Below are positions 3,301 to 63,569 of a stretch of DNA of 64,000 nucleotides, one piece after another. The notes under the pieces were generated by a model, which saw only the letters and a list, made by a program, of their open reading frames with translations, did no database searches and was not told where the DNA came from. A program made the translations under genes and the position numbers. Within the stretch, counting starts at the first letter, position 1, and every line of letters begins with the position of its first letter. Location of the stretch: NCBI RefSeq assembly GCF_032854445.1, contig NC_088302.1, positions 4,461,338 through 4,525,337 of the forward strand, written 5' to 3'. The stretch comes from Liolophura sinensis. Taxonomy: Eukaryota > Mollusca > Polyplacophora > Chitonida > Chitonidae.

Positions 3301-6300
3301 ACAGTCGTTGGTTAACTACCCTCCGTTACGTAGAATTCTGCTTGATAATTCTGGATTCAAAAACAGGATGATAGCTTTTTTTTATTGTCACCCGTCCAGC
3401 TGTGTATTTACCTGCTCCTGATGCATTGTATAGATATACTAGAAGTAACACTGTGCATACCTGTGGAACTGTCTCATTAGTTGGACACAGTGTAGACATT
3501 TCATTATCTACATTTGCAGTAAATAAGGTCACGAGTTATCCTGAGTGGATATATTGCCCCTCGAACAGGATTTAAAAGCTTATTTACTGTATTTGTTCTT
3601 AAAATTTGCTCAAAGTGCATTTTCAGATGCAAATAAAGGCTATCCAGTCTTCGTCAGACTACAGGATGCTGCTACGCCCTTTGTGAACAAAAAAAAAAAA
3701 AAAAAAAATTGAAACCTGAATTTAATACATGCAAGTAAACACAAACTACATGTATTTGGGGAAATGCCGTCTATGTGAAAGCTTTGTGTTGTCTGCTGCA
3801 TTACATACCTAGTGCTGGCGGCAAGGCTTGCTGCTCATAGCAGAATCAAAGATTCTTGCGTCCTGAAGCCAGGTGAAAATAAATGATGGTCGTTGCACAT
3901 ATAGGTTGACATAGAAAAAGATAAGGGACATTTTTGACTGAAGCTTTATAACTGCGGATTGGTTTATAAGGGCTAATTTTTAGTTCAAACACGTTGTTAC
4001 AAAAAAAAATTGTAAGGCCTTTGCGCAATATTTTTAAATCGGGCATGCTCTGACGTTGGTTTGGCAGATTAAAATTTTGCAAAAACTAACCTCAGAACAA
4101 ACTTTGACTAAGTAAGAAGAAGTGTTGTGCTGTACACGTGAAGTGAAGGTCACATACAGGGACCGAAGTCCCTAAAAATGTATCGGTCAAAATATACAAC
4201 ATTGTGTTGCCCCACTCTGCTGGTTCCACTCCCTGCCCTTCAGAGATTAGGCCGTGGTCATAAATTATTACTTCTGGTGCAGAAACGAGCATGAGGGCCT
4301 AACAAAGCTCTAAACCTCTCCATATTAAACATGAACAGAGCTCTCAGAATTGGGCGTAAAAAAGCAATCAGTGTAGTTGTGTACAAAAATTTTGTGAAAC
4401 CGTAGTAATTAAGCCCTGGAGGTGTGTTTAACGGACAGAAGCTTTGTTTTAGTCTGACTGTCTGTGACCTTTGTGGTCAGGCCTGCTAGTCCTATCATGC
4501 GGCTCAGTGATCATGTGCCCCTACCCTTGTGTTTTACCCCTGATTGTACTGGTGTCTGTGACACAGGGCTGAGTGTCTTACATGTTGGAGCTTGAGCCCC
4601 TAGCAACAGGTGTCTGGGTCAGAAGGGTGACAGATGGTAGTAACACAAGTGATACAGGTGCTTGTGCAGAGATAGGTAGCTAATAAATGTGCTTCCCTTA
4701 CTGTGTAGTACCACTTCTAGGTATGAAAGCATTGCCACTACCTACAGGGGCTATAATCAGGACTGTATCTAGCAATGATTTACCAATAAATTTCATGCAA
4801 AAAGCTTTCAGAAAGCATCAATTTGAGTTGCACTTTATTAAATTTCTTTATGCAGAGTCACAATGTCATCTTTGTAGTTTGGAACCAAGACCTTTAATTT
4901 TGCTGTAGATCTGGTCCTGATAATGTGTGCTTAATCTGTTTCTTGTGTCATCAGTTTTTCTCAAACTTCCATTGTAAATTCATCCATTGTGTACATGTAA
5001 ATTTTGTCAAAGACCATATTGATTTCCTGAGTAAACATGGTTTCAGTTTGAATTCAGGGCAGTTTGCTGCAGGGATCTGTGGCCTAGTGGTTACCATGCT
5101 AGCGCAGCACAATGACCTAGGAGCCTCTCACAAATGCAGTCGCTGTGAGTTCAAGTCCAGCTCATGCTGGCTGCTTCTTCAGTCATACAAGAGAAGGTCT
5201 TCCAGGGAATGGCTGTCGGTTTCCTCCCACCATAGCCCTGTCTGCTGTCATGGAAGGAAAATGTTCTTGAGTGCCGTGTAAAACACAAATCAAATATAAA
5301 TACCTGCATATTGTGCATACACCACATATCTTTCCCTCCATGTACATACACCACATGTCTGTCCCTCTGTGTAAATACACCACATATGTCTGTCCCTCCA
5401 TGTGCATACACCGCATGTCTGTCCCTCTGTGTAAATACACCACATGTCTGTCCCTCCATGTACATACACCACATGTCTGTCCCTCCATGTGCATACACCG
5501 CATGTCTGTTCCTCTGTGTAAATACACCACATATGTCTGTCCCTCCATGTGCATACACCACATGTCTGTCCCGCCATGTGCATACACCACATGTCTGTCC
5601 CTCCATGTGCATACACCGCATGTCTGTTCCTCTGTGTAAATACACCACATATGTCTGTCCCGCCATGTGCATACACCACATGTCTGTCCCTCCATGTGCA
5701 TCCACCACATGTCTGTCCCTCCATGTGCATACACCACATGTCTGTCCCGCCATGTGCATACACCACATGTCTGTCCCGCCATGTGCATACACCACATATG
5801 TCTGTCCCTCCATGTGCATACACCACATATGTTTGTCCCTCTGTGTAATCATGGGGTCACAGAGATCCTTTGTGAGATGTTCCAGGTTGTTTTCCTGAAC
5901 TTGTTATCCAATATATTCTGGGTAGTCTCTTCCAGGAATGCTTTTACTATTAGACATGAAGACACAACTGGCTTAATTCAGACCAAATATATGCTTTTAT
6001 CCATAGTATTTTTTCCTCACACTAATCTTGCTGTAGAGAGACTTGAACCATAACATTTGATGCCATTTGATTGTAAGAACAGAACTCCTGTTGAGATGAA
6101 ATGAGTAATTTTATCATGAATGAAACTTTAGGTCAGATGCAGTCAGTAAAAAATTCTCAGCAAGTATGGATTCAAACAATAATCCAATAAATATTCTTGA
6201 ACTAGAGTTCAGAATTAAGTTTGAAACACCTCAGCGAAGTGTTGATTTTCACTTATATATCCATTGTCCGTATGAATTTTGTTAGTTTCCAGAAGACACA

Positions 6301-9300
6301 GGTACATGTAGGGATCTCTGTGATTTGTGAGAAGACTACTCTGCCTATATTAAAGTATAACGTCATTTTGTTTTTCTGTTCTTTCTTTCAAGGAGAAATA
6401 GACAACTTTCAGAACTCGTTCGATGACAGTGATTACAGTGTAGGAGCCCTGGCCATATCATTTTACTCTGGTTTCTGGGCCTATAGTGGATGGTAAGGAG
6501 GGAATGTGTGTGGGTCTATGGTGGTGGGGTGGGGGGGGGGGGGGAGAGGGGTGGTTGGAGAGATAATTCTGGGCCTGTACTGGATGGTAAGGGGGGGAAT
6601 ATATCTGGGCCTGTTGTGGATGGTAAGGGGGAATACGTCTGGGTCTATAGTGGGTAGTAAGGGGGAATGTCTGTGCCAATAGTGGGATGGTAAGGGGAAT
6701 GTCTGGGCCTGTACTGGATGGTAAGGGGGGGAATATATCTGGGCCTGTTGTGGATGGTAAGGGGGAATACGTCTGGGTCTATAGTGGGTAGTAAGGAGGA
6801 ATGTCTGGGTCTATAGTGGGATGGTAAGGGGAATGTCTGGGCCTATAGTGGGATGGTAAGGGGGAATACGTCTGAGCCTATAGTGGATGGTAAGGGGGGG
6901 GGGGGATATATCTGGGCCTGTGGATGGTAAGGGGGAATGTCTGGGTCTATAGTGGGATGGTAAGGGGAATGTCTGGGCCTATAGTGGGATGGTAAGGGGG
7001 AATACGCCTGGGCCTATAGTGGATGGTAAGGGGGAATGTGTCTGGGCCTATAGTGGATGGTAAAGGGGGAATGTGTCTGGGCCTGTAGTGGATGGTAAAG
7101 GGGGAATGTGTCTGGGCCTGTACTGGATGGTAAGGGGGGGAATATATCTGGGCCTGTTGTGGATGGTAAGGGGGAATACGCCTGGGCCTATAGTGGATGG
7201 TAAGGGGGAATGTGTCTGGGCCTATAGTGGATGGTAAAGGGGGAATGTGTCTGGGCCTATAGTGGATGGTAAAGGGGGAATGTGTCTGGGCCTATAGTGG
7301 ATGGTAAAGGGGGAATGTGTCTGGGCCTATAGTGGATGGTAAAGGGGGAATGTGTCTGGGCCTGTAGTGGATGGTAAGGGGGGAATGTGTCTGGGCCTGT
7401 AGTGGATGGTAAGGGAGGTGGGGGGATGTGTCTGGGCCTATAGTAGATGGTAAAGGGGGAATGTGTCTGGGCCTGTAGTGGATGGTGATTGGGGGAAACG
7501 TCTTGGTCTGTAGTGAATGGTGAGGGGGAATGTCTAGGCCTGTAGTGGATGGGAAAGGGGGGGGGGGGGGGAATGTGTCTGGGCCTGTAGTGGATGGTGA
7601 TGGGGGGAAAACGTCTTGGTCTACAGTGGATGGTGAGGGGGAATGTCTAGGCCTGTAGTGGATGGGAAAGGGGGGAATGTGTCTGGGCCTATAGTGGGTG
7701 GTAAGGGGGCTTGTTGTGGGGGAGGGGGGTGGGGAGACATTTACAGAAACAATCGCTTTGATTTTCCATCTGTCCATCCTGCCAGCCAATCTTGTCTCTG
7801 TCACATGTGTGACTGATTGTTAATCAGTAGGATATCATCCTACTTTGAAAATAAACCTCAAAACACCTTTTCTACAATCACTAGAACACTTACAATCAGG
7901 AAAAAAAATATGACTAACTCAGTCGTGGATAAAATTTTATGTCATTTATATGCGTGGTAAATATTAATGGAGAACTTTACTGGCATGTACATCCTGTACC
8001 AAATGTGTTTTATACAGAATCTCAGACCTGACATTAAACACAAACTGACTGTCTGAATAATGGAGTTGAGCTGCCTGTTCTGTTTCTGTGTACCACCAAA
8101 GCACATTTCCACATTCCATGTATTAATGCTTGTGCTAATGGCTTATTCCTTGTAGGAGTTACCTGAATTTTCTCACGGAGGAGCTAATCAATCCTAACAG
8201 GTGAGGGAAATTCTTTTATCTGAGTTAATTTTTTAGGAATTCTCTGAATTTTCTTCGTGAAGAAATCATTGATCCTAAAAGGTGAGGAAGGTGTTTTATT
8301 ATCTTGTATTTACAGTGTTTTTTACCACAATAAAACATTTTCTGTCCCGTCCATTTTTGCTAAGGTGAAGTGTGTAGTGTGAATCTTTGAAAGGTAGCTA
8401 ACTTTCCTCCAAGTGAACAATATTTATAGTGATCAAGTGTCAACATGGTCAATATGCAATGTTTTATTACGGATCTTATCTAGCTATTTAAACAGGTTTA
8501 TTTGAATAATATGAAATATAATGTGGCTTGAAGATCAATGCACACAAGCATGTGTCATGAAAAATGCAGTTTTTAGCTCGCCTGTATATAGTGCAGACGT
8601 AGTTTATGTCATACCCTGAGTATCGATGTCGGCGTCCAATAAAAGAGAAGGTAATATTAAACAAAATATTAGGGGTGGTATCTTGAAAAGTACTGCAGGT
8701 ATTGAGCTCAGGGTTTGCTCACATCTAGAGCACAATATCACCAGGGGGATATTCCATCTTTGATTGGTGTGTGCATATTAAATACCATAAATTACTGAAT
8801 TCCTGATAATAAGCATTGTATTTATTGGCATGAAGTTTTACATACATGTAAATCACAATGACGCAAGGGGGATGTTCCATCGCTGATGGTCTGTCAGCAT
8901 ATCAATTATCATAAATTACCAAATTCATGATTTCTGTTCTTTCTGCATTGAGCTGAAGTTTAGCATCCATTTGCTCATACTGGCGAGCTCTTTGGTAGCC
9001 TTGCTACCAGTTCTATTTTAAGGTGACATATAATGGTGTGAATGGCATGTTTGGAGAGTTTAGGGAGATTTTAAGACTTCCTAACTTGCCCTAGATTAAT
9101 AATTTTCAGGTTTTTCTGAACTAATGACAACTGTTATACAAATGTTCATTAGACCTCACATCAGATATTTTTTGTAATCATTGTGCTGCTGATCGCTAAT
9201 GTGGGTTGTATACATATTCGTCCAGGAACCTGCCCTTGGCTATCATCATATCCATGTCTGTAGTAATCACTGTGTACCTGATTGCTAACGTGGCCTACCT

Positions 9301-12300
9301 TGGCGTCCTCACACCTATAGAGATGTTGGCATCACCAGCTGTGGCTGTGGTAAGCTGTTTTCGTAGCAGTTTAGACAATAAAGTTTTCAGGAAGCCATGA
9401 TCCATTGTCCACTTTTCTTTTTGTTAAGAACTATTACTTGTGGCAAGTAAATGTATTTTCTACGTGCAGTCAACTTTGGAGAATAATATTATGCCTAGCC
9501 GACCATGTATTCCCTTGAAAACATCACATTCTCCCTTAATAGTGATACGCATGCAGTTGCCATCAGCAGTGAATAAAAGTATTCCAAAACGGATGAATTT
9601 GATAATGCCTTGTAAACCATGCTTAGCAGACCGACACTGTGTTAACACAAATCAGATGTTCACCAGGTGGCGCTTCACTAATACTGCTCATGAAACCTGT
9701 TGTAAAAACCATAATGAGAGTAAGGTTGAACTGTTTCATTTTGTCCTGGGACAGTATATGTGAAAGGTTTCAGGGCAGGGTCCATTCAGGGACCAGTCTT
9801 ACAAGTAAGGACAGTGTTTGCTGATGTGATGGCTGAAAGCTTCTCTGAACATTTGTACAGGGTACAGGGATCACAATGCCTGTAATGTGTAAATTTGAAA
9901 ACTTCTTTTCCTCTTGCCATACTTTTAGGCAAATAAAGGATTAACACGAAGTATATGTCAAGTGAAAGACCATTGATCAATATCTTGAAAATTGGTGTGA
10001 TTCATCGGGGGAGGTTTTGGGGCGACAGGATTGTTTTTCATTGATGTAAAATACAAGTGAAACTTTGACCACAAAACCCCATATGCTGTAAGCATCCCCA
10101 GAACAGTGAATCCTGTAGATATCAAGAGAGCAAAGTCTCCTCATTTCAAGTGAAATCAAGCATTGTGTAGAGGATGGGAAAACGGCCGCATGAATTGAAA
10201 GGGTATAAATATGTAATATCTGAGTCTACAAATGTTTAGCGTATGTAAATTTGGCTAAATTTGTTGTGTTTATCTGTTGTAGACATTTGCAGAGAAAACA
10301 CTCGGTGTGATGACGTGGGCCATGCCCATTTTGATCGCACTGTCCGTCTGTGGGATGATCAATGGCACAGCTCTCTCCATGTCCAGGTAAGCCGCAGGAC
10401 ACCAAGACATTTCAGCTGTCCACACTTTGGCTACACTACTGTTCAGCTGTCCACACTTTGGCTACACTACTGTTCAGCTGTCCACACTTTGGCTATGCTA
10501 ACTTTCAGCCGTCCACACTTTGTCTACACTACTGTTCAGCTGTCCACACTTTGGCTACACTACTGTTCAGCTGTCCACACTTTGGCTACACTAACTTTCA
10601 GCCGTCCACACTTTGTCTACACTACCTTTCAGCCGTTCACACTTTGGCTACACTACCTTTCAGCCATCCACACTTTGGCTACACTTCCTTTCAGCCGTTC
10701 ACACTTTGGCTACACTACTGTTTAGCTGTCCACACTTTGGCTACACTACCTTTCAGCTGTTCACACTTTGGCTACACTACCTTTCAGCCGTTCACACTTT
10801 GGCTACACTACCTTTCAGCCATCCACACTTTGGCTACACTACCTTTCAGCCATCCACACTTTGGCTACACTACTGTTCAGCCGTCCACATTTTGGCTACA
10901 CTACTGTTCAGCCGTACACACTTTGGCTACACTTCCTTTCAGCCGTTCACACTTTGGCTACACTACTGTTCAGCTGTCCACACTTTGGCTACTCTACCTT
11001 TCAGCCGTCCACACTTTGGCTACACTACCTTTCAGCCGTCCACACTTTGGCTACACTACCTTTCAGCCGTCCACACTTTGGCTACACTACCTTTCAGCCG
11101 TCCATATTTTGGCTACACTACTGTTCAGCCGTACACACTTTGGCTACACTTCCTTTCAGCCGTTCACACTTCGGCTACACTACCTTTCAGCCGTGGTGTT
11201 GGTGTCGGTGTGTAAGATTTTTTGTTTGGGTCAGTTGAGTAAGGTTTTATGTTTGGGTAGCTAGTCTCAGTTTTCACATCACTTTATGAAATTTGGTGGG
11301 AATGATGAACATGATTTGGACATTTACTCATTTTGATTATAAATTAGGAATGTTTGCATTTTTATTCAACTTATTAGGTTCAAAATTGTATCCAAGTCTT
11401 GGCCATTTTATCCAAGCCAGTACTATAGTAGGCCAGGGTGAGGTTTTTTGCTTGGGTCAGCTGTTGCCACAGTTTTTACACCGTCTTGCTGAAACTCGGT
11501 GTGGACTATTGGCATGCTTTGAAGACTTCATGGAATAAATGATTTTAAATGATTAGGTGTATCTATATTTTTATTCAGATTACCAGCTTTTTGACTTTGC
11601 CATTTTATGTTCACTAGTACAATTCCGTTTGTTGGCCAAATTCAGATTTTGAACTTGGCCATTTTACCCCCTGTTATTGTGGGCCAGGGTAAGGTTTTTT
11701 GTTTGGGTCAGCTGTTGCCACAGTTTTTACATCATTTTTCCGAAACTTAGTGGGGGCGATGGGCATGCATTATCAGGTTTTAGACTTGAAGATGTTATCA
11801 TATGTTTTGGATTTGCTATGTTCACATTCACTTCACAGGTATATATGTAGGTTCAGGTTTTATGTTCAGGTCAGCTGTTATCAGTTTTCAACATATCTTT
11901 ATGAAACTTCATGGGCGTGAGAAACATGCCTTGAATATGTACACACGTGAATTTTGATATTATATTTGATTTTTTTTTATCCAAGAACTGAAGTCATTAC
12001 CGGCAAGCTATCACATTTCTCATAACCCTTGTTTCATTTTTACCCCCTGTCTTCGACATTGAAAGAATATTTTTCTGCCTCAAAAACACAAGTTCAGTTG
12101 GTGTGTCCGAAGGTATTAAGTATGTTACAATAGCTGCAGGTAACAGGTATTTATGTTGATAGCAAATCAAGATTATCAAGGCTTTAATATATGTATATTT
12201 TAACACAGATTAAGGTTATGGTCAAATGGAAGGGTTGGAGAGGTGTGCTCTTAAGGCATGGTTAAATACTTATGGATAACAGGTGCTTGGTGTAGACCGC

Positions 12301-15597: not shown

Positions 15598-18500
15598 CAG
15601 CACTCAGACTTGGTACCAGGTCAGAAGTAGTACATCAGGCAAACTTTGTAAATTGATCTAATCAAAGTTTAAATATTATTGGGATTAAATCTGGCAAATT
15701 TATTCCATTCTGACCTAAATCCCTTCTGACAATAAGAAGTAGATCAGCAGATACTGTGTAATGGATTACCTCCCCTGACGGCAGGGGCCAAATTGTCCGT
15801 ATCCTTTACGGGGTACATCTCATCACAGTTAATACTGCGGTCTAAAACAAGAAAGTTTTTGAATTCCATTTTCTTCTCTTCTGCCTACAAAAGCCAATCA
15901 AGCCGCTGTTATGCTGCAACTATCCAGGAACAGTGACATTTTTTTAGAAAAGAACCAAAGAATACCTGGCATGGACCAACTTGTTTTAGGCTATGTTTCC
16001 CTTTGTTTCATGCCGAATTCTTACTGCAAAAAGTGCAGTTTATTATGAACAATAATCAGGTAAATTTATCCTTTAAAGGGTCGCTATGGTTTGTCTTTTG
16101 TAAGCTGTTCAATCGGGCAATTTTTAAAAAGTCCTACAGTTTAACCCAACCTCATCAGGGTAAATACAGTAGGACTCCCTGGAAATTTTTCTTTTTGTCT
16201 TTTCAATTCTGGGTAATGAAGGAGATATGGATTTTAAAGAAGTAAATATTGAGAGAAAAATGATACAAAGAAATTCCTTCAAAAGCCCCAAAAGGCTGTT
16301 TTTATTTTTTTGGGTCTTTGGGTTACTGGCAACAAGCATATTTTTTGTGATGGTCTTGTGGTGGAATGTTATAGGAGAACAAGAATTGAATTTGATAAAG
16401 AAAAACAATAATTCTCCAAAGTTTGGGTGTTTTATAAGTAATATTTTGAAGTCACAAAAGCCATAAGCACAAAAAAGCAAACAAATGATCGTAGTTAATT
16501 ATGCCAGATAGCTTTATACAGTATTGTGTTTTCTGTTCCAGGTTATTTTGGGTGGGAGCCAGAGAAGGTCATTTCCCAGCCCCGATGTCTATGATCAACA
16601 TGAAACAGCTGACCCCTATGCCATCATTACTTGTCATTGTAAGTACACCTGTACATCACCTGTGTCAACAGCCCTCACTAACCTGCCGGTGTTTTGCCCA
16701 AGGCTACTGTCTGAAATCCTGTAAGCATCTAAACAAATTACCCGTGGACCTTGAAATCATTGAAACGAGTGGAATTTTGTAAAATTATTTTGGTGTTAGC
16801 CATTAAAAGGTATTGATTTTGCAATGTTATTTTTAAAATGGACTTTTAAGAAGTCCTGTAAAAAGTGGTAAAGCAGTTTTATGACACTGTGAACTGGACT
16901 GCTAAACTCTAAACTTCTATTGCAATCAGACTAAAGTCAAACAGTGGATTTAGTTGGTTATTTGGATTATAACAGGTTGGTCTCTGGTTTCCAGTAAACT
17001 AAATAATGATGATATAGATAATGAAATTGGGTAATCACCACGTAAATGTAAACTTTCACCCAAGTTTTCAGCCGTCTAACCGAGATCTTTGTCAAAACTA
17101 GTACTGGTATAGAAATAATCACTATTATATCATTCTCATGTTGTCAGATTTTTTGTCATTGACAACATCTGGCCATTTTTGAGAATTCATTGGTTTCCTT
17201 GTACTCTTTCAGTTGATTCTGTCATTGCTGATGCAGTCATCCAATGATATATTTTACCTGATAGAGATGGAAGGTTTTGGCTTTGCCTCAGTGTTAACAA
17301 TAGTTCTGGCTGGGCAAGCCTGGCTGCGCTACAAACAACCTAATCTCAAGAGGCCAATAAAGGTGAGATTACTTTCATTTTACTTTGGTTTTTTGCAATG
17401 AAGTTATATTTTGAAATTTTTGTATTGTTGTTTTCTTTGAATGTTTTTGTTTTGAATGTGAAATGTGGCCCATTATTGAATTGAATTGAATGTTAATGGT
17501 TTTGATATAACCTTTTTTTCAGGTGAACCCTTCATATAAGTTGTTGTTGTTTTGATATTCATTTTGTAAACATCACACATAGGCTGAACTATGAAGTAAT
17601 TAATTACTTTTGAATCACAGTTTATTCAGTTAAGGTCTGTAACGCTCCTCATTCTCGAACTGTATCTAATACCACTTAACCTGGGGCTAGGGGTCATAAG
17701 GGCAGAGATACCTTGTTTAATTGTTATTTGACCTGGACCTTTGACTCATTCATAGACTAAGAATTTGAACTTTGATATGGAATTCATGCCTGGAATATCC
17801 ACTGTCTGCCCGGCATCTTTGAAAACTGATGACCGCTTCTCTCTTTGTATTTGTTTGTATAATTTCCTACATACCTTTGTCTTTCGGAGCTAGTTTTAAA
17901 CATTGTTTTGGAAATGGATCTTGCGATTATCGACTTGGAACGCCCTTTATGGACTACGAATGGTATACGAATGTCGGACATGACACTTATATACCAAAGA
18001 CCTTAAAAACGGTACTTGTTGCTTCCTCTATAGGAGCTCAGTACTGAGAGGGTATAACAAGGAAACCGGACTGGTTGACCCGATGTCTATATACATGTAA
18101 TGTGACTGGTAGGGGTGTCATGTCTGGTGTCTTTGACATGTACTTCTGTGGCAGCAGCACCTTGGCGGCATGGAGTCGTTCAGCCACAAAAAATCTCAGA
18201 ATACGTGTGTGCACATACCTAATGATGACTCAATTCATCATTGTTTAGTACGACGTAAAACATCAAGCATGCGTATTAATGTAGAACCCCAATGCTGGGC
18301 CCTCCAAACTGCGTAGAGGTAGGTTAATGCCCCCTGAATTCATTTTGATCGAAAGGGAAACGATAGAATTTGGTGATCAAACATTAGAAAATCTACCGCA
18401 CTACAATAAAGCCACCCTTGACCTTTTGACGTCACGTCCGCACATTCATAGGCAGGCACACAGGCTTGTCTGTGTACAACACAGATGACAGGAGACAATT

Positions 18501-21500
18501 GCTGTATTTTTACAAGTTATTTTGAGATTATTCCATGCCCAAGTGTGCCTTGCGACTGCTGTAACAAAACACAGGGTACTGTAAAGTTACAGGCCTTTCC
18601 TAAAAATGCCACAGATTAAGAAAATATGGACCAGATATCTTAAACACCTGTTGATTACGGAGGAGTCAGTAGATCGTAGTGGTATGAGGTTTGCTAATTC
18701 TACCATGCCTATCGTAGTCGTATGAGGTTTGCTAGTTCTACCATGCCTATCGTAGTGGTATGAGGTTTGCTAGTTCTACCATGCCTATCGTAGTTGTATG
18801 AGGTTTGCTAATTCTACCATGCCTATCGTAGTCGTATGAGGTTTGCTAATTCTACCATGCCTATCGTAGTCGTATGAGGTTAGCTAATTCTACCGTGCCT
18901 GAGGTTTGCTAATTCTACCATGCCTATCGTAGCCGTATGAGGTTTGCTAATTCTACCGTGCCTATCGTAGCCGTATGAGGTTTGCTAATTCTACCATGCC
19001 TATCGTAGCCGTATGAGGTTTGCTAATTCTACCATGCCTATCGTAGCCGTATGAGGTTTGCTAATTTTACCATGCCTATCGTAGTCGTATGAGGTTTGCT
19101 AATTCTACCATGCCTATCGTAGTCGTATGAGGTTTGCTAATTCTACCATGCCTATCGTAGCCGTATGAGGTTAGCTAATTCTACCATGCCTATCGTAGCC
19201 GTATGAGGTTTGCTAATTCTATCTTGCCTATCGTAGCCGTATGAGGTTTGCTAATTCTACCGTGCCTATCGTAGCGGTATGAGGTTTGCTAATTCTACCG
19301 TGCCTATCGTAGCCGTATGAGGTTAGCTAATTCTACCGTGCCTGAGGTTTGCTAATTCTACCGTGCCTATCGTAGCCGTATGAGGTTTGCTAATTCTACC
19401 ATGCCTATCGTAGCCGTATGAGGTTTGCTAATTCTACCATGCCTATCGTAGCCGTATGAGGTTTGCTAATTCTACCATGCCTATCGTAGTCGTATGAGAT
19501 TTGCTAATTCTACCATGCCTATCGTAGTCATATGAGGTTTGCTAATTCTACCATGCCTATACTGAAAGAAAGGACCAGGCTACTAAAGGACCAGGCTTAT
19601 AGCCCGGTGATACTTTTTAAAAATTAAACAAGATTAGCTCGATTGTTACCGTCTGCGGTGTTGAGCGACAGACTTTTCTAGCTCGTCATTTCTAACTCAC
19701 AATCCGCTGGCCCAACTAAATAGATCCTCGTGTTGCAGCAGGTATCGGCTGTAAAAATTTGTGGACTGTAAACCGTACCATGTTCTTCACAGATACAATC
19801 ATGTCAATTTCGTCACAGACAAACCAGACAAGACCGCGTTTGTGTTATCTACCGGAAAATCGGGCATCGTATCGCCCAATCGCTATGCCCTACTCACTTT
19901 TCAAGGACCTGAAACAACTTGGGTATCTTTCAAAATGTTTGTTGTAGAACTGATTACGTAAATGGTTTTCAGGGTTCTAATTACAGGTGTGCACTTTATA
20001 GGGTAAATATAGATTAAGTCATACGATGGCTCAATCTGGAAAAGCACACAGCGGGCAGGCCTAACGCATGGATTTGACAATGCTTTGCACAGCTTTTCAA
20101 TACATAGTCCTAGTTCTTACTGGCATGATGTCATCCAGCGAGGGACAACGGCTGAAAAAGATAGACAGAGGGTCCAGCTTTAATGGGATTTTTTAAATAG
20201 AAGCAGTTAAGATAATATTTTTTAAATGCAGTTTACAGACTAACATAGCATAAATATTGTGTTTAGGGAACATTTAGTATGAAAATAAAGACGTTTGAGA
20301 TCTCTGTTTAGCATATTGTACGAATGTTGTAAAATTAACACTTTTTATATTCAGATTTTCCGTCATGTTTGTCTTATTACCCATTGTGTTATCAGTCTTC
20401 CACAGTTCCTTGTGTTCAGGGCATTTCGATTAATACTGTACCTTGATCCCTTGCATTCTGTTTTTTTTTTTTTTTTTCTTCTTTTTTTTGACATATCTGC
20501 CTTACTGTTTCTTACAGTTGCCCATTGTGTTGCCAATCTTGCTGAGTCTGGTCAGCTTGTTCATCGTGGTCCTTACTGTCTATCAGAAGCCTCACGAGAG
20601 TGGCCTGGCCATCGGATTGGTCGGCATTGGTGTAATCGTTTATGTGGTCGGGTGTCGGTGGAAGAATAAGCCCAAGGCCATCCAGGGGAAGATTGGTGAG
20701 TCCTAACATAAACATAGCATGGATGAGATCCTATCTTACAGACAAAACTGTCTAGATGAGAGGGACCTCATAGTCTGCTCCTATCTTACAGACAAAACTG
20801 TCTAGATGAGAGGGACCTCATAGTCCGCTCCGATCTTACAGACAAACTGTCTGGATGACAGGGACCTCATAGTCCGCTCCGATCTTACAGACAAACTGTC
20901 TAGATGAGAGGGACCTCATAGTCCGCTCCTATCATACAGACAAACTGTCTAGATGAGAGGGACCTCATAGTCCGCTCCTATCATACAGACAAACTGTCTA
21001 GATGAGAGGGACCTCATAGTCCGCTCCTATCATACAGACAAACTGTCTAGATGAGAGGGACCTCATAGTCCGCTCCGATCTTACAGACAAACTGTCTAGA
21101 TGAGAGGGACTTCATAGTCTGCTCCTATCTTACAGACAAACTGTCTAGATGAGAGGGACTTCATAGTCCGCTCCTATCATACAGACAAACTGTCTAGATG
21201 AGAGGGACTTCATAGTCTGCTCCGATCTTACGGACAAAACTGTCTGGATGAGAGGGACTTCATAGTCTGCTCCTATCATACAGACAAACTGTCTAGATGA
21301 GAGGGACTTCATAGTCTGCTCCGATCTTACAGACAAAACTGTCTGGATGAGAGGGACTTCATAGTCTGCTCCTATCATACAGACAAACTGTCTGGATGAG
21401 AGGGACTTCATAGTCTGCTCCGATCTTACAGACAAAACTGTCTAGATGAGAGGGACTTCATAGTCTGCTCCTATCATACAGACAAACTGTCTGGATGAGA

Positions 21501-36700: not shown

Positions 36701-39700
36701 CTGACCACCTTCTTCATCATCATCTTCACCTTCATCATCACTGAAATCAGACAATGTGAATGATAAGGTCGCTACTTTTACTTTACTGAACAGTCAAATA
36801 GGAGACAACAGGGACTTTTTGTTTGATAATTTTCATTAAAAATTTATCACATACAATATCAATATAAAAATATATAAGAAATATAAATTTTTATGAAATT
36901 TTATGTCTTTATTGTACTTTTCTCACGGGAAACAACGCAGCACTTGGTCAAGGCTTATTTGACACATCCTTGTTTATTTATCTGATTGATGTTTTACGCC
37001 GTGCTCAAGAATATTTCACTCATATGATGCCGATTATGGTGGGAGGAAACCAAGTAGAGCCTGTGAGGAACCCCAAGACCATCCGCCAGTTGCTGACAGA
37101 CCTTCCTGGAGAGGAAATCAGCAGTCTCGTAAAACAAGGATAATCCAGTGCACTGTGCATATATACCTGTCATACAGTTTAATGTGTGCAATGTTATTTC
37201 TTGTCCTCTTTTTTTAATTCTTCTATTAATCAATATTTTTTACTTTAAAGTCTGGAATACAGAATTATTATTATTATTATTATTATTTTCTCACCTGAAT
37301 GACCCTAAAGCATCCACCCGTCCCATAGCCTCCATGGTACCCTGCACTATCTCTACACCTTCATCTCCTAACATGTTAGCTGTAAGCATGCAAAAAGATT
37401 TGTTCTTGTTTATTAAATCTCTTGTTTACAATTTAAGCCATAAGAACAAAAGAAATTCACAATTCTGTTTAAAAAAGTTGATGGGCAAGGAGATATCAAG
37501 TTTGTCTTGTTAATCATTAAAAAGTCCTTGGCAATTTCCCAATAAAACAAATCCCAAAACAAAACAAAAAAACGGCCTTTAATCAACAGGTCAGACAGTT
37601 ACAATGACAAATATGAGCTTAAAAGGAGACTGATTAGAACATAGAACAATGGACATACAATCCAAAAACTGCACAACAGCAACAAAACATCACATTTATT
37701 TACTGGAAATGACTTTTTTTACCAAAGACGTTCAAAATATAGCTATAATTCTGGGCTGGGTTGTGGAGACAAGATGCGTAATTCTGGGTTGGGTTGTAGA
37801 GACAAGACGTATAATTCTGGGCTGGGTTGTAGTGACAAGACGTATAATTCTGGGCTGGGTTGTAGAGACAAGACATATAATTCTGAGCTGGGTTGTAGAG
37901 ACAAGATGTATAATTCTGGGCTGGATTGTAGAGACAAGACATATAATTCTGGGCTGGGTTGTAGAGACAAGACATGATTTGAGCCATGATGGCGATGGAA
38001 AAAATCGGCACTGAAAATCCACAACTGCCACTGACCACTTATTTACCATATCTTCACTTTAAAAATTCACTGTCCAAGTCTGGAATTCAACAGGGCACAT
38101 CTTGTTTTAGAGGTTGGGAGTGCCACAAGTAGTGAGCACCCCTTGTTCTTATCCAGTTCCCCATGAACAACGAGAGCAGGGAAATATAAAACTTTTCTGC
38201 CCAAGTCTGGGATCGAATGAGTACATCATGTTCCTGGCATATCCAGGTTGTTTGTTATACCATACCATCTAAGTCTAATTTGACCAGGTCATCTTTGTTC
38301 TCCATGCTCTCTGCCACAGCCAAAGCCCCAGAGCGGCGTATCTCATTCCCAGACAATATTAGTTCCTACAACATTCAGCATATCACACAATAAGGTAATA
38401 CCAAATGATGGTAGGTTTTATCTGGAAACAAGAATGGTCAAGTCATCTAAGAAGAAAACTTTGTATTTGCTGGGTCCACTGAGTCCTCTCTTTGATTTTT
38501 TAAAAGAATTAATCAAATCATATCCTTTGATATCTGGGGTTGGTTGTCTTAAAAGAGAAGAGTGCATAGCGACTGCGATGGTGAGAAGCTCCTGTGTCGT
38601 TGTCCAGCACAATGTCACTTCAGTCCATATTAACATTAATACAGGCCTTAACTGCTAATACACTTTTGAACAACTGGGCCCTGCAATATTAAAACCTCAA
38701 ACACTGCATGTACACACTTACTTTTAATTTTAGGTGCTTTTCTTCTAAAGCTTTAGCCAAAGACTTGGCACCTTCTGTGCGTACCAAACAGTCCCCAAAA
38801 TTGAGTACTTCCAGCTTCTCCAGCTTGGGTAAGGCCTGTGTACAACAACAACAACCCAGTGATACCTGTGGTCTCAATGACAGAATGATCAAACACATAA
38901 AATGTATCCATGTTTTAATATTATATTAATATAATGATGAATAGTGAATGGTTTCATCCATCATTCAGGCCCTTGCTGGCTCACTCTACCAGAGCCTCTC
39001 TGGTGAATGATTCAAATCCAGCTAATCCAGCTCATTCCCCATAAACCTTCGACATCCCCAGTGAATTTTACAATGACTCTATTATTTGTCATTTAGAAAC
39101 TGCTGACTACACACAAAAATGAATGACAAAAGATGTGTTTGGGGAGATGCATGCAGTTTGGGCTGAGACGATATGCTACTGTCTGACATAATTTGTAATA
39201 TTGCCGTTGAATATTATACGGTTTGTAAATCAACTAAGTTTACGCCTGTGGTAGTCCGTAAATGATACAGATCTGTCCCACAACACTTTGTTCCATGGCC
39301 CCTTCGGCTAAACATAACTAAATCTTTGTAAACTATCTCAATATGATATCTTATGCAGTAGTTCTGTGTTATCATATGTCACTTCATGGAGTGAATGGAT
39401 AAGGGCTACGTCACAGCTTAGGCTGTGCAATCAGAAAAATTCTCAAGATGGCTGCCTGAACTCACACCAGCTATTTGTGCAGAATTGTCATTTTGTTCTG
39501 TATGTCGTTCTGTGAAATCTCATTAAAATGATGATGCTTTTCAGAAAGCTTGAGTATCCTGCTTTCAATTTGTTTTCTTTTATGTTTTAGCCAGGTGCAG
39601 TCTGTCCTGTCTTGTAAGCTGCATGCTAACGTACAACATGAATACCCACCTTTGCCATTGCAGCTGCCCCTTTCTCGGTGAAGGTGTTGTCATTAAGGTT

Positions 39701-42700
39701 GAGTACCCGTAGTCCAGGGTTAGCGGCCACAGCCTCTGACAGGGCTGTAATACCTGGGAAGTTGATCCCATTCTGTGGCATAGCCAGTTCCTCCAGGGTA
39801 CCAATAGCCTACAACACAATCCCATACATGTACACCTAGGTGGATTGATCCTTTATTTTTGCGCTCAAAATTATCTTCCTCGGTTTCAGGTATCGCCTTA
39901 TGGTAAGAAGATGGCCCAGGTGTTCAATGATCAATCAATGATCTGTTCATATAATCCTGTCAAAGTTATCTTATTTTACAAAGACACTGATGAATAACTA
40001 GAACAGCAGGTAAACATTTCAATGGCTAAAGGCGAGTGGCTTCAACAATAATGCATTACTTATTTTACTCAGGGGGTTTCTAAATATATCCAATAATATA
40101 TCAAAGAAGTTCAGGCTACCTGTATTGTTACACACTGATGTAAGACAAACAAAATCTCCAAACTACGATGTATTATTACAGTATTCCACAAAGATAAGAA
40201 CAGTCATAGCTCATAATGAGACCAGGTTTGGAATTGACACCGCATCAGCAGTATAGTGAGTTTGGCAGATGGTAGAGGGTGACTTTACCTCGAGGCTTGA
40301 CTTCTATTAGCACTATCAGAACTGCTCAGTGACGTTTTTAAGTTTACCTTGAAAGCCTGTGCTAAGGCTGTAGCTCCCTCATTTTCTAATCGATTTCGGC
40401 CAGATATAAACACTCGCAAGGACAGGGGTTTGCCGGCTGCTGAGCTACTCTCGTGACACTCCAACAGACTCTTAGCCAGCATCTACAATGTCCAATAGAC
40501 CAGCACACATTAGTACACTACCAGGCTAGTATTGGGAGATCCAGGAAGAGAACGAAGGTCAGGATTAATACAAATCTATATGGTTGCTTCCAAATAAATA
40601 CATCTTGACATTTTCTGACATTAACAGAATACTGTATTCCAAATTTCGACCAGAATAAATACAAGACAATCAAAATTCATTCTGAATGATTTCATTCAAG
40701 ATGGGGACCCAAAAATACATTTAAATGTGCCATCAGGACACAGGAGTTGAGGCAACGTGAGACAAATCGGTGTTCAGGGATGTTGCCAATGAATCTGACG
40801 TATGCATTCTTACAATACAATTTCACTTTCACTATGGCTGATAAGAATACCTTGTGGCACCATCGTCCCTGCCCCAGTCCCCAGTCTTCAGAAAATGAAC
40901 AGCCCAAGATAAACCAGATGTCTTGGTTTAAATTTTTTTTTCTTAGTTCACTTTTTTCATTTCTAATATTTAATGTTAACCACTTTCATTACCACACTGG
41001 TACAAAACTTGATATCGTTCTTCTTAATGGGATATGGGAATGAAAAAAATACAACATTCTGCTTACTGAAATCTTACGTTTCACACAAGTAGACAAACCA
41101 GACAATTTCATCGCATCACATTTGGGTGATGGAGTTGCATTTAGTTACCTTTCCTCCCCCAATGCCCAGCCCGTTGTTGTTGAGCCGCAGTTCCCGCAGC
41201 GAGTAACAGCTCGTGCTTGTGAGCAGTTGGACGATACCCTCTACACCTGTTGGCCCAAATGCATTGTCGCTGAGGTTCAGCTCTACCAGGTGAGCTTGTG
41301 CTGTGATGATGGCTGCACCCAGGCTTTTCTGTTAACATACACAGCATTATAAGATCAGTTTCAAATTAAAGAGTCACTGGCGTGACACAGGCTTCTGTTT
41401 TTAGTTTTAATCAGGATGACAAATTTAACACTTTCACCTGCTAGTAAAATCTCATGAACATGAGTCATTCTAGGTTTTAAAAGTCTTGCATAATGGCAGT
41501 CATTTACTTATAGAGTGTATGAATTAAACCCATTAGATTAAGCTCATTTCAAATAAACATAATATATGTGCATTTTGCTAGTTCTTCGATAATGCTCTTT
41601 TTTTGTATCCGACACTTTAAATACTTATACATGTATATTAAATTACTGTGTTTCACCTAAAGTTTAGCATATTTCACGTGACTCTGATTGAATCTGACAT
41701 TCTTGCACCTTAAGGGGTCACATACAAGCTGTTTGTGATTTATTCATGCACCTCATGGGGACACATAAAAACTGTTTGTGATTTATTCATGCACCTTATG
41801 GGGTCACATAAACGCTGTTTGTCATTTATTCATGCACCTTATTGGGTCACATGATCGCTGTTTTAGATTTATTCATGCACCTTATTGGTCACATAAAAAC
41901 TGTTTTTGATTTAATCATGCACCTTATGGGGTCACATAAAAACTGTGAATTATTCATGCACCTTATGGGGTCACATAAAAACTGTGAATTATTCATGCAC
42001 CTTATTGGGTCACATAAAAACTGTGAATTATTCATGCACCTTATGGGGTCACACAAAAACTGTGAATTATTCATGCACCTTATGGGGTCACACAAAAACT
42101 GTGAATTATTCATGCACCTTATGGGGTCACATAAACGCTGTTTGTCATTTATTCATGCACCTTATTGGTCACATAAAAACTGTTTTTGATTTAATCATGC
42201 ACCTTATGGGGTCACATAAAAACTGTGAATTATTCATGCACCTTATGGGGTCACATAAAAACTGTGAATTATTCATGCACCTTATTGGGTCACATAAAAA
42301 CTGTGAATTATTCATGCACCTTATGGGGTCACACAAAAACTGTGAATTATTCATGCACCTTATGGGGTCACACAAAAACTGTGAATTATTCATGCACCTT
42401 ATTGGGTCACATAAAAGTTTTTGTGAAGTATGATTAATTTCTTATCAGAAAAAATAAAGTGTTGTCTTCCAAAGTTTATTTTAAGGCCTTCATGTGCTTC
42501 TGAAAGGTTACTTTTCGTACTTAAGTTAAGGTGAAATACAGCAGACTAAAGAGTTACTGTCTGATTATTTGTTTGTTTTTTATTTACACTTCTCTCCAGA
42601 TTGACTTCATAGTTCAAACATATGTTCAAAATTCATCCCTAACAAACTACACCATGACTTAAAAAAAATGTGTATCATTTAATTCTCAAACAAGCGAGAT

Positions 42701-45700
42701 GCATAGAGACAAATTTACACTTCTAATAAAGAAAAATACAACCTAAAACATATACTTGCTTTAAATACAATGTATTTCAGTTTTATGAGTAAATTTGTCT
42801 GAGAGAGCAGGGCATTACCAGTGCTGGGGGAATTTCTGTTTTCAACCGCCCTGTAAACATGTCACTCCACAAAGCCCGCTGTGAAAATAAAAAGATGTCT
42901 TCTACAAATTGTGTTATATGGAAATTACGAAGACATTCAGTAATACCAATGATATAAGTTCACATATCAAACAGAAAACCTCTAATTCAGAAAACAGACT
43001 GATCGAAAATAAATTTACCACCACATGATAACAGGCATTGTCTTAAATGGTTCACATATAAGCTACCAAAGTCTTTGTGAGATTTCTTCGAGCAGATAAA
43101 CTGAAAGAGATTGACAGATAAACTCATTTAGCAGTCAATATCATTTAGCAAGAGACAAACTGAGTCGAGTTGCATGTACCTCAAATTCTGGATGCTTTTC
43201 TAAAGCCTTGCCAATAACCTTTGCAGCCTCTGCACCCATGGTATTTCCTTCAAGTCGAAGGGCAGTCATATGGGGACATTTCTCAATACCTTCTGCTATT
43301 TCTTTGGCTACAGAAAAAAAAGTTAAATTTACAATCAAACAGAACAGAATTTCAAGCTTTGGCCAATCTTCAATTTACTGTGTAGGCGACTTTGGAGCAC
43401 CACAGACACCAAAGCCTGAGGCACTCAAGAGATACGGAAGCAGGATGATTGTGAAAATTCTCTCCATGGGAATGGCATCTTCTGACAAGTTGTGTGATGT
43501 GCATACTTACTGGTAAGGACACAGTGATTTAGCTGAGTTTTCTTTGTCTATAGTCTTTACTGCATGCTCTCCATTTCACTTGAAAGAGTGCCAGGTAAAG
43601 CATGAACTGGGAGCTTTCCTGAATGCATCCTCAAGAGGACTTAACATTGAGTCAAAGGCCAGAATACTGTAATTCTTCAGCCTTTTTGCATGTCTGCAAG
43701 GTGTTTATTCAAGCATATTCTGAAAACATTATTCTGTGTTGACTGATAAGATTATACTTTTTGCATAGCCCTGAAACTGGCCAATACAACCAACAAATTA
43801 TAAATCAAATTATAAATGTACATTAAATGTACTGAAAGTTGCTCTTTCATAAGCAAAAACGTTGAGGAATTACAGTATGTTGAAGTAGATTTAATGTTTA
43901 ATTTAGTTTCGACATGAACTATGTCATGATCGTACCAGCAACTGAAAAAAAAAAGACAATCCCTAACAAGTGATTCTCAATGGATAACACATCTGTACAC
44001 AGTGTAGTGTTGTTGTTACAGTGGGCAGAAAGCTCAGTAGCTGACATGTCCCCTGTAATTTTTTTAAATAAATGTAGAAAACAATTCAAACAAATTGTCA
44101 TTCTCAGTATGTCTAGGCTTTATAAAGAGTAAATGTTGATGGCAAAGCAATCCTAGTCCCAAATGTCTCCTTCGAGCAATGTTGTATTGGAGACACAGGT
44201 GACAAGCATCCTGCCTTGTCAACATGCTCACAAAATTATCACCAACAGAGAAACTGTACCATTGCACATACCTGTGTGAACACTCATATTTCTTTGTGAG
44301 CAAGCGCAAGACTGGTTGGATTAAAAGTTGCCACACAAATCATTATCAAAAGAGACGTTCTCTTGAAAACCAATACCTCCATCTTAAATCTACTAGTTTG
44401 AATATTCAACTCTTTTCCCCTGATTTTGAGACTTTTTCACTCATTAGAGTTATAAATGCAACTGAGCTAGTTTGGCATGGGGAAAGTTTAAACCCTATTT
44501 TGATGGTGATACTTTTAATCCACTAAAGTGTGAAAGAGCACAGACATGTCTTTCTCGCACAAATACTGGTGCTCACCCATGTGCAACAGTACAATCTGTC
44601 TGTCTACGGGTCAAGATCAGAGGGCACAGACATATATGGAGAAAAATGTGTTATTTCTTGACGTAAACTGTCCTGATCAAGAGGAAAATGGAAGTAGAAC
44701 AAGTTTCATGGCAAGGCAAACTCAGTCAGATTAGCATGGATGATTCCATTTTTTATGCACATGACTAGATGCACATGATATACACATCCAATACAAGTTA
44801 AGAAGGAGACAGCTGGGGACAACGCAATCCAAATTGGCTAACAGTCACTATGCTGGACAAAGTGCAGTGCTGTGTGGATACCAATAGAATCTTCATAGAC
44901 CTCAAGCCTCTGTGTTAGTAAGAGCTTGGTAGGGTTGAAAACTGTTTAAGATGTACTGTTTACAAAATGAGGTGTGACGTGTCAGAGGACAATAAGCCGC
45001 GCCAACATCCGGTGCGGGCGACTCCATTTTGCCAAAGAACAAGTCATGAAGTCTTCTGTATTAGGAGGAGAACTGCCATCGGAAACCACCGAAGTGCAGT
45101 TTGTACATTTCTGGCAGAACTCTTCTTCCCATATGGTAACGAACAGTACATTTCGTTTTCCGCTTGACGATCGGGAAACCGAAATGTTGGACGCAGACTT
45201 CGAGTTTACACAAACAAGCCGGCAGTTTTAACACCTCTCACTGGCTGAGAGGCAATGCACCCCCAGCATAAATTAACCCCCAGCTGATGGCCTCAGCGCT
45301 TTACGCCAGCTTTGCCGTTTTCAGATTTTACGTGTAAGGCGAGGAAAAATTGCAAAATTATGCAGCAGGCACCACCAGATAGAAAAAAATGTGCTCTTTT
45401 CAGCCCATAGTGTCATGTTTTTAAGTTTTCTTCTCCTTTAATCCATTTTGTGATAAATATTACAAACCATAAACATCTCAACATCCTAAAGTTTGAGGAT
45501 GCTTATGTTGATTGAGTATTTCATAGGCTGCGTGTGACCCGAGATTCCTTCATGGTGCTTAAAGGAGATCACTAACAACTTTACTTTCAAACTAAATGTT
45601 CCCTAGACACAATATTTATGCTATGTCGGTCTATAAACTGTTTCTAAAAAAATATTATGTTAATTAGTTCCATTTAAAAAAAAAAAAAAAGTTGGACCCT

Positions 45701-52822: not shown

Positions 52823-63569
<10,747 letters not shown>

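Follow-up and report, generated by a model that had tools for sequence, protein, structure and literature searches.

Tandem TM6b exons in a chiton SLC7 light-chain gene: a candidate mutually exclusive pair at the substrate site

Alternative exons in SLC7 transporters and other carriers

The alternative exons of CAT-2 are mutually exclusive, as are those of SLC12A1/NKCC2 at exon 4. In alpha-tropomyosin mutual exclusion is steric, the donor lying too near the downstream branch point. Within the SLC7 family, the exon versions of CAT-2 (SLC7A2; CAT-2A and CAT-2B) accompany high and low substrate affinity, and a role in affinity has been proposed for exon 6a/6b of fish Slc7a1a; in the CATs the swapped part begins in the second half of TM8, passes through the cytoplasmic hairpin and ends in the first half of TM9 (excerpts of PMC7584565). 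SLC39A14 and SLC25A3 are further carriers with mutually exclusive exons (excerpt of PMC5740500); in these two, as in SLC12A1/NKCC2, the exons exchange part of a membrane carrier, though the families are unrelated to the one considered here. Among vertebrate light chains, differences at the positions of LAT1 residues 258 and 259 are found in separate genes (in part from excerpts of PMC7653941 and PMC12444478).

Here we describe a gene of the chiton Liolophura sinensis that resembles CAT-2 and Slc7a1a in belonging to the SLC7 family and in carrying one exon in alternative versions. It differs from them in encoding a heteromeric light chain rather than a member of the CAT branch, and in that the affected segment is TM6b at the substrate site rather than TM8–TM9. 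With the LAT1, LAT2, y+LAT and xCT light chains it has the fold and a 15-residue TM6b segment in common. The tandem-duplicated TM6b exon is probably a mutually exclusive pair, whose isoforms would differ at the substrate pocket. Among the matches listed in the full-text literature, which leaves out most subscription papers and genome annotations, no LAT-type light chain with alternative TM6 exons was found. Within that literature, nothing contradicts the claim of an earlier note on this DNA that such an arrangement has not been described for SLC7 light chains; for the CAT branch, however, exon alternatives with an effect on affinity are known (PMC7584565, in excerpt).

The host gene

The window analysed here is a stretch of 64,000 nucleotides, C8:4461338-4525337 of the 609,464,459-base genome. 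The transporter gene lies on its plus strand, and the gene model consists of exons joined by splice borders, frame and homology rather than by a transcript. Coding exon 1 lies outside the window (C8:4455368-4455827, or 3969-4428 of the neighbouring stretch L011) and joins exon 2 (229-354) in frame. Exon 3 (6393-6492) ends within the Trp codon that corresponds to LAT1 W257, and the duplicated exon 4 is followed by exon 5 (9226-9349), which offers an in-frame acceptor for either copy, exon 6 (10283-10386), exon 7 (16542-16638), exon 8 (17213-17362), which encodes TM10, and exon 9 (20518-20694), whose 3′ border is uncertain by one base, the GT being found one base further on. No exon for the C-terminal tail was located; the located exons give 461 codons without a stop in both isoforms.

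The 198-aa core matches PF13520 (E 4.3e-33), with 115.3 bits for isoform A and 112.6 bits for isoform B. In the Protein Data Bank, isoform A scores 459 bits against the consensus-mutated xCT 7ccs, 433 against LAT1 (E 9.9e-129), 414 against LAT2, 411 against y+LAT2, 401 against xCT, 397 against y+LAT1, 369 against b0,+AT and 359 against Asc-1; isoform B scores 453, 427, 413, 410, 393, 395, 367 and 360 bits, respectively. The predicted product is thus an SLC7 heteromeric-transporter light chain of the LAT/xCT branch, and the earlier description of the gene as LAT-type agrees with both the PF13520 domain and the best solved relatives (consensus xCT 7ccs, LAT1, LAT2 and y+LAT2). No single vertebrate subtype is assignable from these bit scores. 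An FPDC sequence in the gene aligns with the FPTC cysteine of LAT1, a residue that we take to be the heavy-chain-linking cysteine of light chains.

Other features accompany the gene in the window and on the contig. A 48-bp repeat array of ~60 units at 59855-62759 contains long open stretches on both strands, and open stretches on the minus strand at 38692-43374 resemble, by eye, leucine-rich repeats, presumably of the RanGAP kind. Elsewhere on C8 there is a cluster of eight haemocyanin beta-sandwich domains (PF14830, E down to 3.3e-41), a domain with no match in 14 control genomes; we take PF14830 to be molluscan, which makes a mollusc the most likely source of the DNA.

Two versions of exon 4

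Exon 4A (8156-8200) and exon 4B (8237-8281), here also A and B, are neighbouring exons of homologous sequence, 45 nt each, stand in the same phase with open frames, and are separated by a 36-nt spacer (8201-8236). Both are preceded by AG and followed by GTGAGG. The upstream W257 codon is split TG/G (the slash marks the exon border), and an R codon is split AG/G after the exon. The two copies are identical at 31 of 45 nucleotides and nine of 15 amino acids, so that six of the 15 residues differ. A base-exact check and a recount of the identities returned the same coordinates, lengths, phase, borders, spacer and similarity (69% in DNA) as the earlier note, and the junction partners it named, 6492 and 9226, are right by frame and borders. 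The exon that starts at 9226 ends at 9349 (donor gtaagc), an end that is needed for the frame. An assembly artefact is ruled out, as A and B differ at 14 of 45 positions. Among the matches listed, no second near-identical place was found in the genome.

Paralogous 45-nt exons bounded by AG and GT were found in 10 of 19 scanned stretches (L012-L030), one copy in each; these stretches surround other LAT matches of the genome, outside the window gene. The other nine lack a recognisable exon, although one of them, L027, contains a weak AG/GT-bounded candidate (score 19.4), and the survey is therefore partial. Several of the 19 stretches may belong to one gene, the introns of the paralogues are partly covered, the survey for pairs omitted some matches (e.g., C11:16256751, C9:10263100 and C9:10238237), and a further stretch, L031, was used for TM10 alone, so that another such pair may exist elsewhere in the genome. 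Exon A shares 32 of 45 nucleotides with its nearest paralogue, L012, and B shares 30 of 45 with the same exon. A and B are thus about as distant from each other as A is from L012, which makes the duplication look old and B apparently kept since.

Constraint on exon 4B

A profile built from the ten paralogous exons separates both copies from background. Across both strands of the window, 193 open 45-nt frames lie between AG and GT; A scores 47.9 and B 39.3, and the other 191 have a mean of −14.2 (s.d. 6.3) and a maximum of 9.5. Because the scores of A and B lie so far above those of the other frames, a chance origin of the pair is excluded. Beside A and B there is no third copy at a profile score of at least 18. 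When each paralogue is scored with itself left out, the ten range from 37.2 to 51.6, and B falls inside this range, at its low end. Exon B retains the invariant L260, N261 and E266, and at 11 of its 14 full codons it encodes a residue present in some paralogue; its R264, I267 and K271 are absent from all ten.

Neutral decay was simulated in 20,000 runs scored against a profile of nine paralogues. Starting from A with 14 substitutions, 0.07% of runs reach the score of B, and 0.045% do so with both splice borders intact. Eight of the 14 changes between A and B fall in third positions, and at least eight do so in 1.5% of neutral runs. Starting from the L012 exon with 15 changes, the corresponding fractions are 0.02% for the score, 0.015% with borders and 2.8% for third positions. 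The test is weaker when A is given only seven changes, with 7.5% of runs reaching the score and 4.1% doing so with splice borders. By the NG86 method, A and B differ with pS 0.78 and pN 0.21 over ~9 and ~33 sites, with synonymous changes near saturation; with only 14 full codons, these selection estimates are rough. Profile score, decay simulation and NG86 indicate protein-level constraint: exon B is constrained in its coding sequence and is not a decaying copy.

These data bear on the view that B is a retired duplicate, with A always used and B a fossil or spliced as noise. In favour of this view, B has diverged further than A (39.3 against 47.9), and only 36 nt are available for its acceptor region. 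Its open frame, both splice borders and invariant residues have nonetheless been kept, and silent changes are in excess at a synonymous distance near saturation. We regard a retired exon B as unlikely.

Splicing geometry

The proposed explanation holds that an ancestral 45-nt TM6b exon was tandemly duplicated in one molluscan SLC7 light-chain gene, and that the donor of A would then lie so near to B's acceptor and branch point that the spliceosome could not excise the 36-nt spacer. This crowding of donor and branch point would make each transcript take A or B. In the 60 nt before the B acceptor, yUnAy motifs place candidate branch-point adenosines at 8187, 8197, 8218 and 8228. Those at 8187 and 8197 fall within exon A; the putative branch point at 8197 belongs to a CTAAC (8194-8198, plus strand), 40 nt upstream of the B acceptor by the script's count. 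The other two are at spacer positions 18 and 28, and by the same count only 9 nt separate 8228 from the acceptor. In human mutually exclusive exons, a distance of <50 bp between donor and branch point marks a candidate for steric interference (excerpt of PMC5740500). From the 36-nt spacer and these motif positions, steric exclusion, as the earlier note had argued, is predicted. Here the best branch-point motif would lie inside the upstream exon, unlike the arrangement in alpha-tropomyosin.

The reading frame itself sets no lock against the use of both exons or of neither. Double inclusion and double skipping are both in frame, and translation bears out the earlier statement on the former; skipping both deletes TM6b, and retention of the spacer leads at once to an in-frame stop. 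Frame and canonical borders would thus permit a protein in which A and B are joined through a 36-nt intron and 15 residues are gained. Against this, 36 nt are too few to hold a branch point at a distance from the donor, the candidate adenosines fall inside exon A (8187 and 8197) or at positions 18 and 28 of the spacer, and a doubled TM6b should not fit the fold. We infer that A cannot be joined to B; a joined product is the most improbable of the readings considered here. Under mutually exclusive use, A would be the likelier default, because it has a CTAAT motif of its own 18 nt from its acceptor; use of B would need A to be skipped.

The introns of the transporter gene contain several minisatellite arrays. 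One, in the intron directly upstream of A (6568-7709; 35 bp, 32.8 copies), has a unit that copies the 3′ end of exon 3 together with its 5′ splice site (TCTGGGCCTATAGTGGATG/GTAAGG, the slash again marking the exon border). ATGGTAA occurs in 24 copies in this intron, forming a row of decoy donors before the exon pair; five of these were read through, and each would add 1–3 stops. Another array (10410-11194; 31 bp, 25.3 copies) starts just past the donor of exon 6 (10283-10386).

Position of the swapped segment in the substrate site

A gapless alignment with LAT1 (chain 6jmq_A) places exon 4 from N258 to the R272 codon, that is, in TM6b, and so bears out the earlier placement of the exon start at N258-Y259. 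In this numbering F252, G255 and W257 fall at their published places, and the 15-residue segment aligns without gaps to both LAT1 and 7ccs. The residues at 258/259 are Ser-Tyr in A and Asn-Ser in B. Asn-Ser also occurs in the single-exon paralogue L020 and Ser-Tyr in L012, so each pair is also found in genes with one version of the exon.

Published work on LAT transporters bears on these positions. In LAT1, Tyr259 hydrogen-bonds the substrates Tyr and Trp, and Y259A lowers the affinity for Trp more than twofold; the mutants with reduced L-DOPA or Leu transport include Y259A and Y259F, although Tyr259 makes no direct contact to L-DOPA/Leu and local dynamics may, according to the authors, mediate the effect (excerpts of PMC12444478). 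At the places of LAT1 Gly255/Asn258 stand acidic residues in b0,+AT (Asp233) and in y+LAT1/2 (Asp243, Asp251), and these (e.g., Asp243 of y+LAT1) have been proposed to serve the transport of dibasic substrates (excerpts of PMC7653941). Such mutant and comparison data for the 258/259 region support a location of the exon pair where selectivity is set.

Other substrate-site positions of the gene are also altered. In TM10 (17213-17362; ~7520-7670 in the nearest paralogue, L012) the gene reads IEMEGF against INFFSF in LAT1, which puts a Glu at the place of Phe400 in both the gene and L012, with lower alignment confidence in that stretch. Both genes have Trp at the Phe252 gate, and the window gene has Ser at Gly255. 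These Glu, Trp and Ser replacements suggest an unusual substrate.

The isoforms would differ at six of 15 residues, among them the equivalents of LAT1 Asn258 and Tyr259. Isoform A, with Ser-Tyr, would retain the aromatic residue; isoform B, with Asn-Ser, would lack it and should bind large aromatic side chains more weakly or prefer other substrates. A variant of this explanation, whose probability overlaps with that of the main one, is that mutually exclusive use of the pair tunes expression, folding or turnover and leaves the substrate range alone. Of the six differences, four are in later parts of TM6b, at a distance from 258/259, and R264 of B is absent from the ten paralogues, as tuning might predict; yet both pocket residues differ, at positions that published LAT work links to selectivity. 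We find tuning alone rather unlikely, though less so than a retired exon B.

Implications for the SLC7 light chains

LAT light chains determine what amino acids and drugs a cell takes up, and the role of a few TM6 residues in selectivity is currently studied by mutagenesis. Under the favoured reading of the pair as mutually exclusive, one light-chain gene may serve two classes of substrate through an exchange of the half of TM6 that faces the substrate. Changes at 258/259 that are spread over the vertebrate LAT and y+LAT genes would then be combined in a pair of 45-nt exons, within a molluscan LAT subgroup that carries Glu at the position of Phe400 and Trp at the Phe252 gate. We put this broader view forward tentatively, as a possibility somewhat short of even likelihood. 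If it holds, a natural isoform pair that differs in TM6b alone would be a ready-made selectivity experiment, and splicing would do work in this gene that is left to gene duplication in vertebrates.
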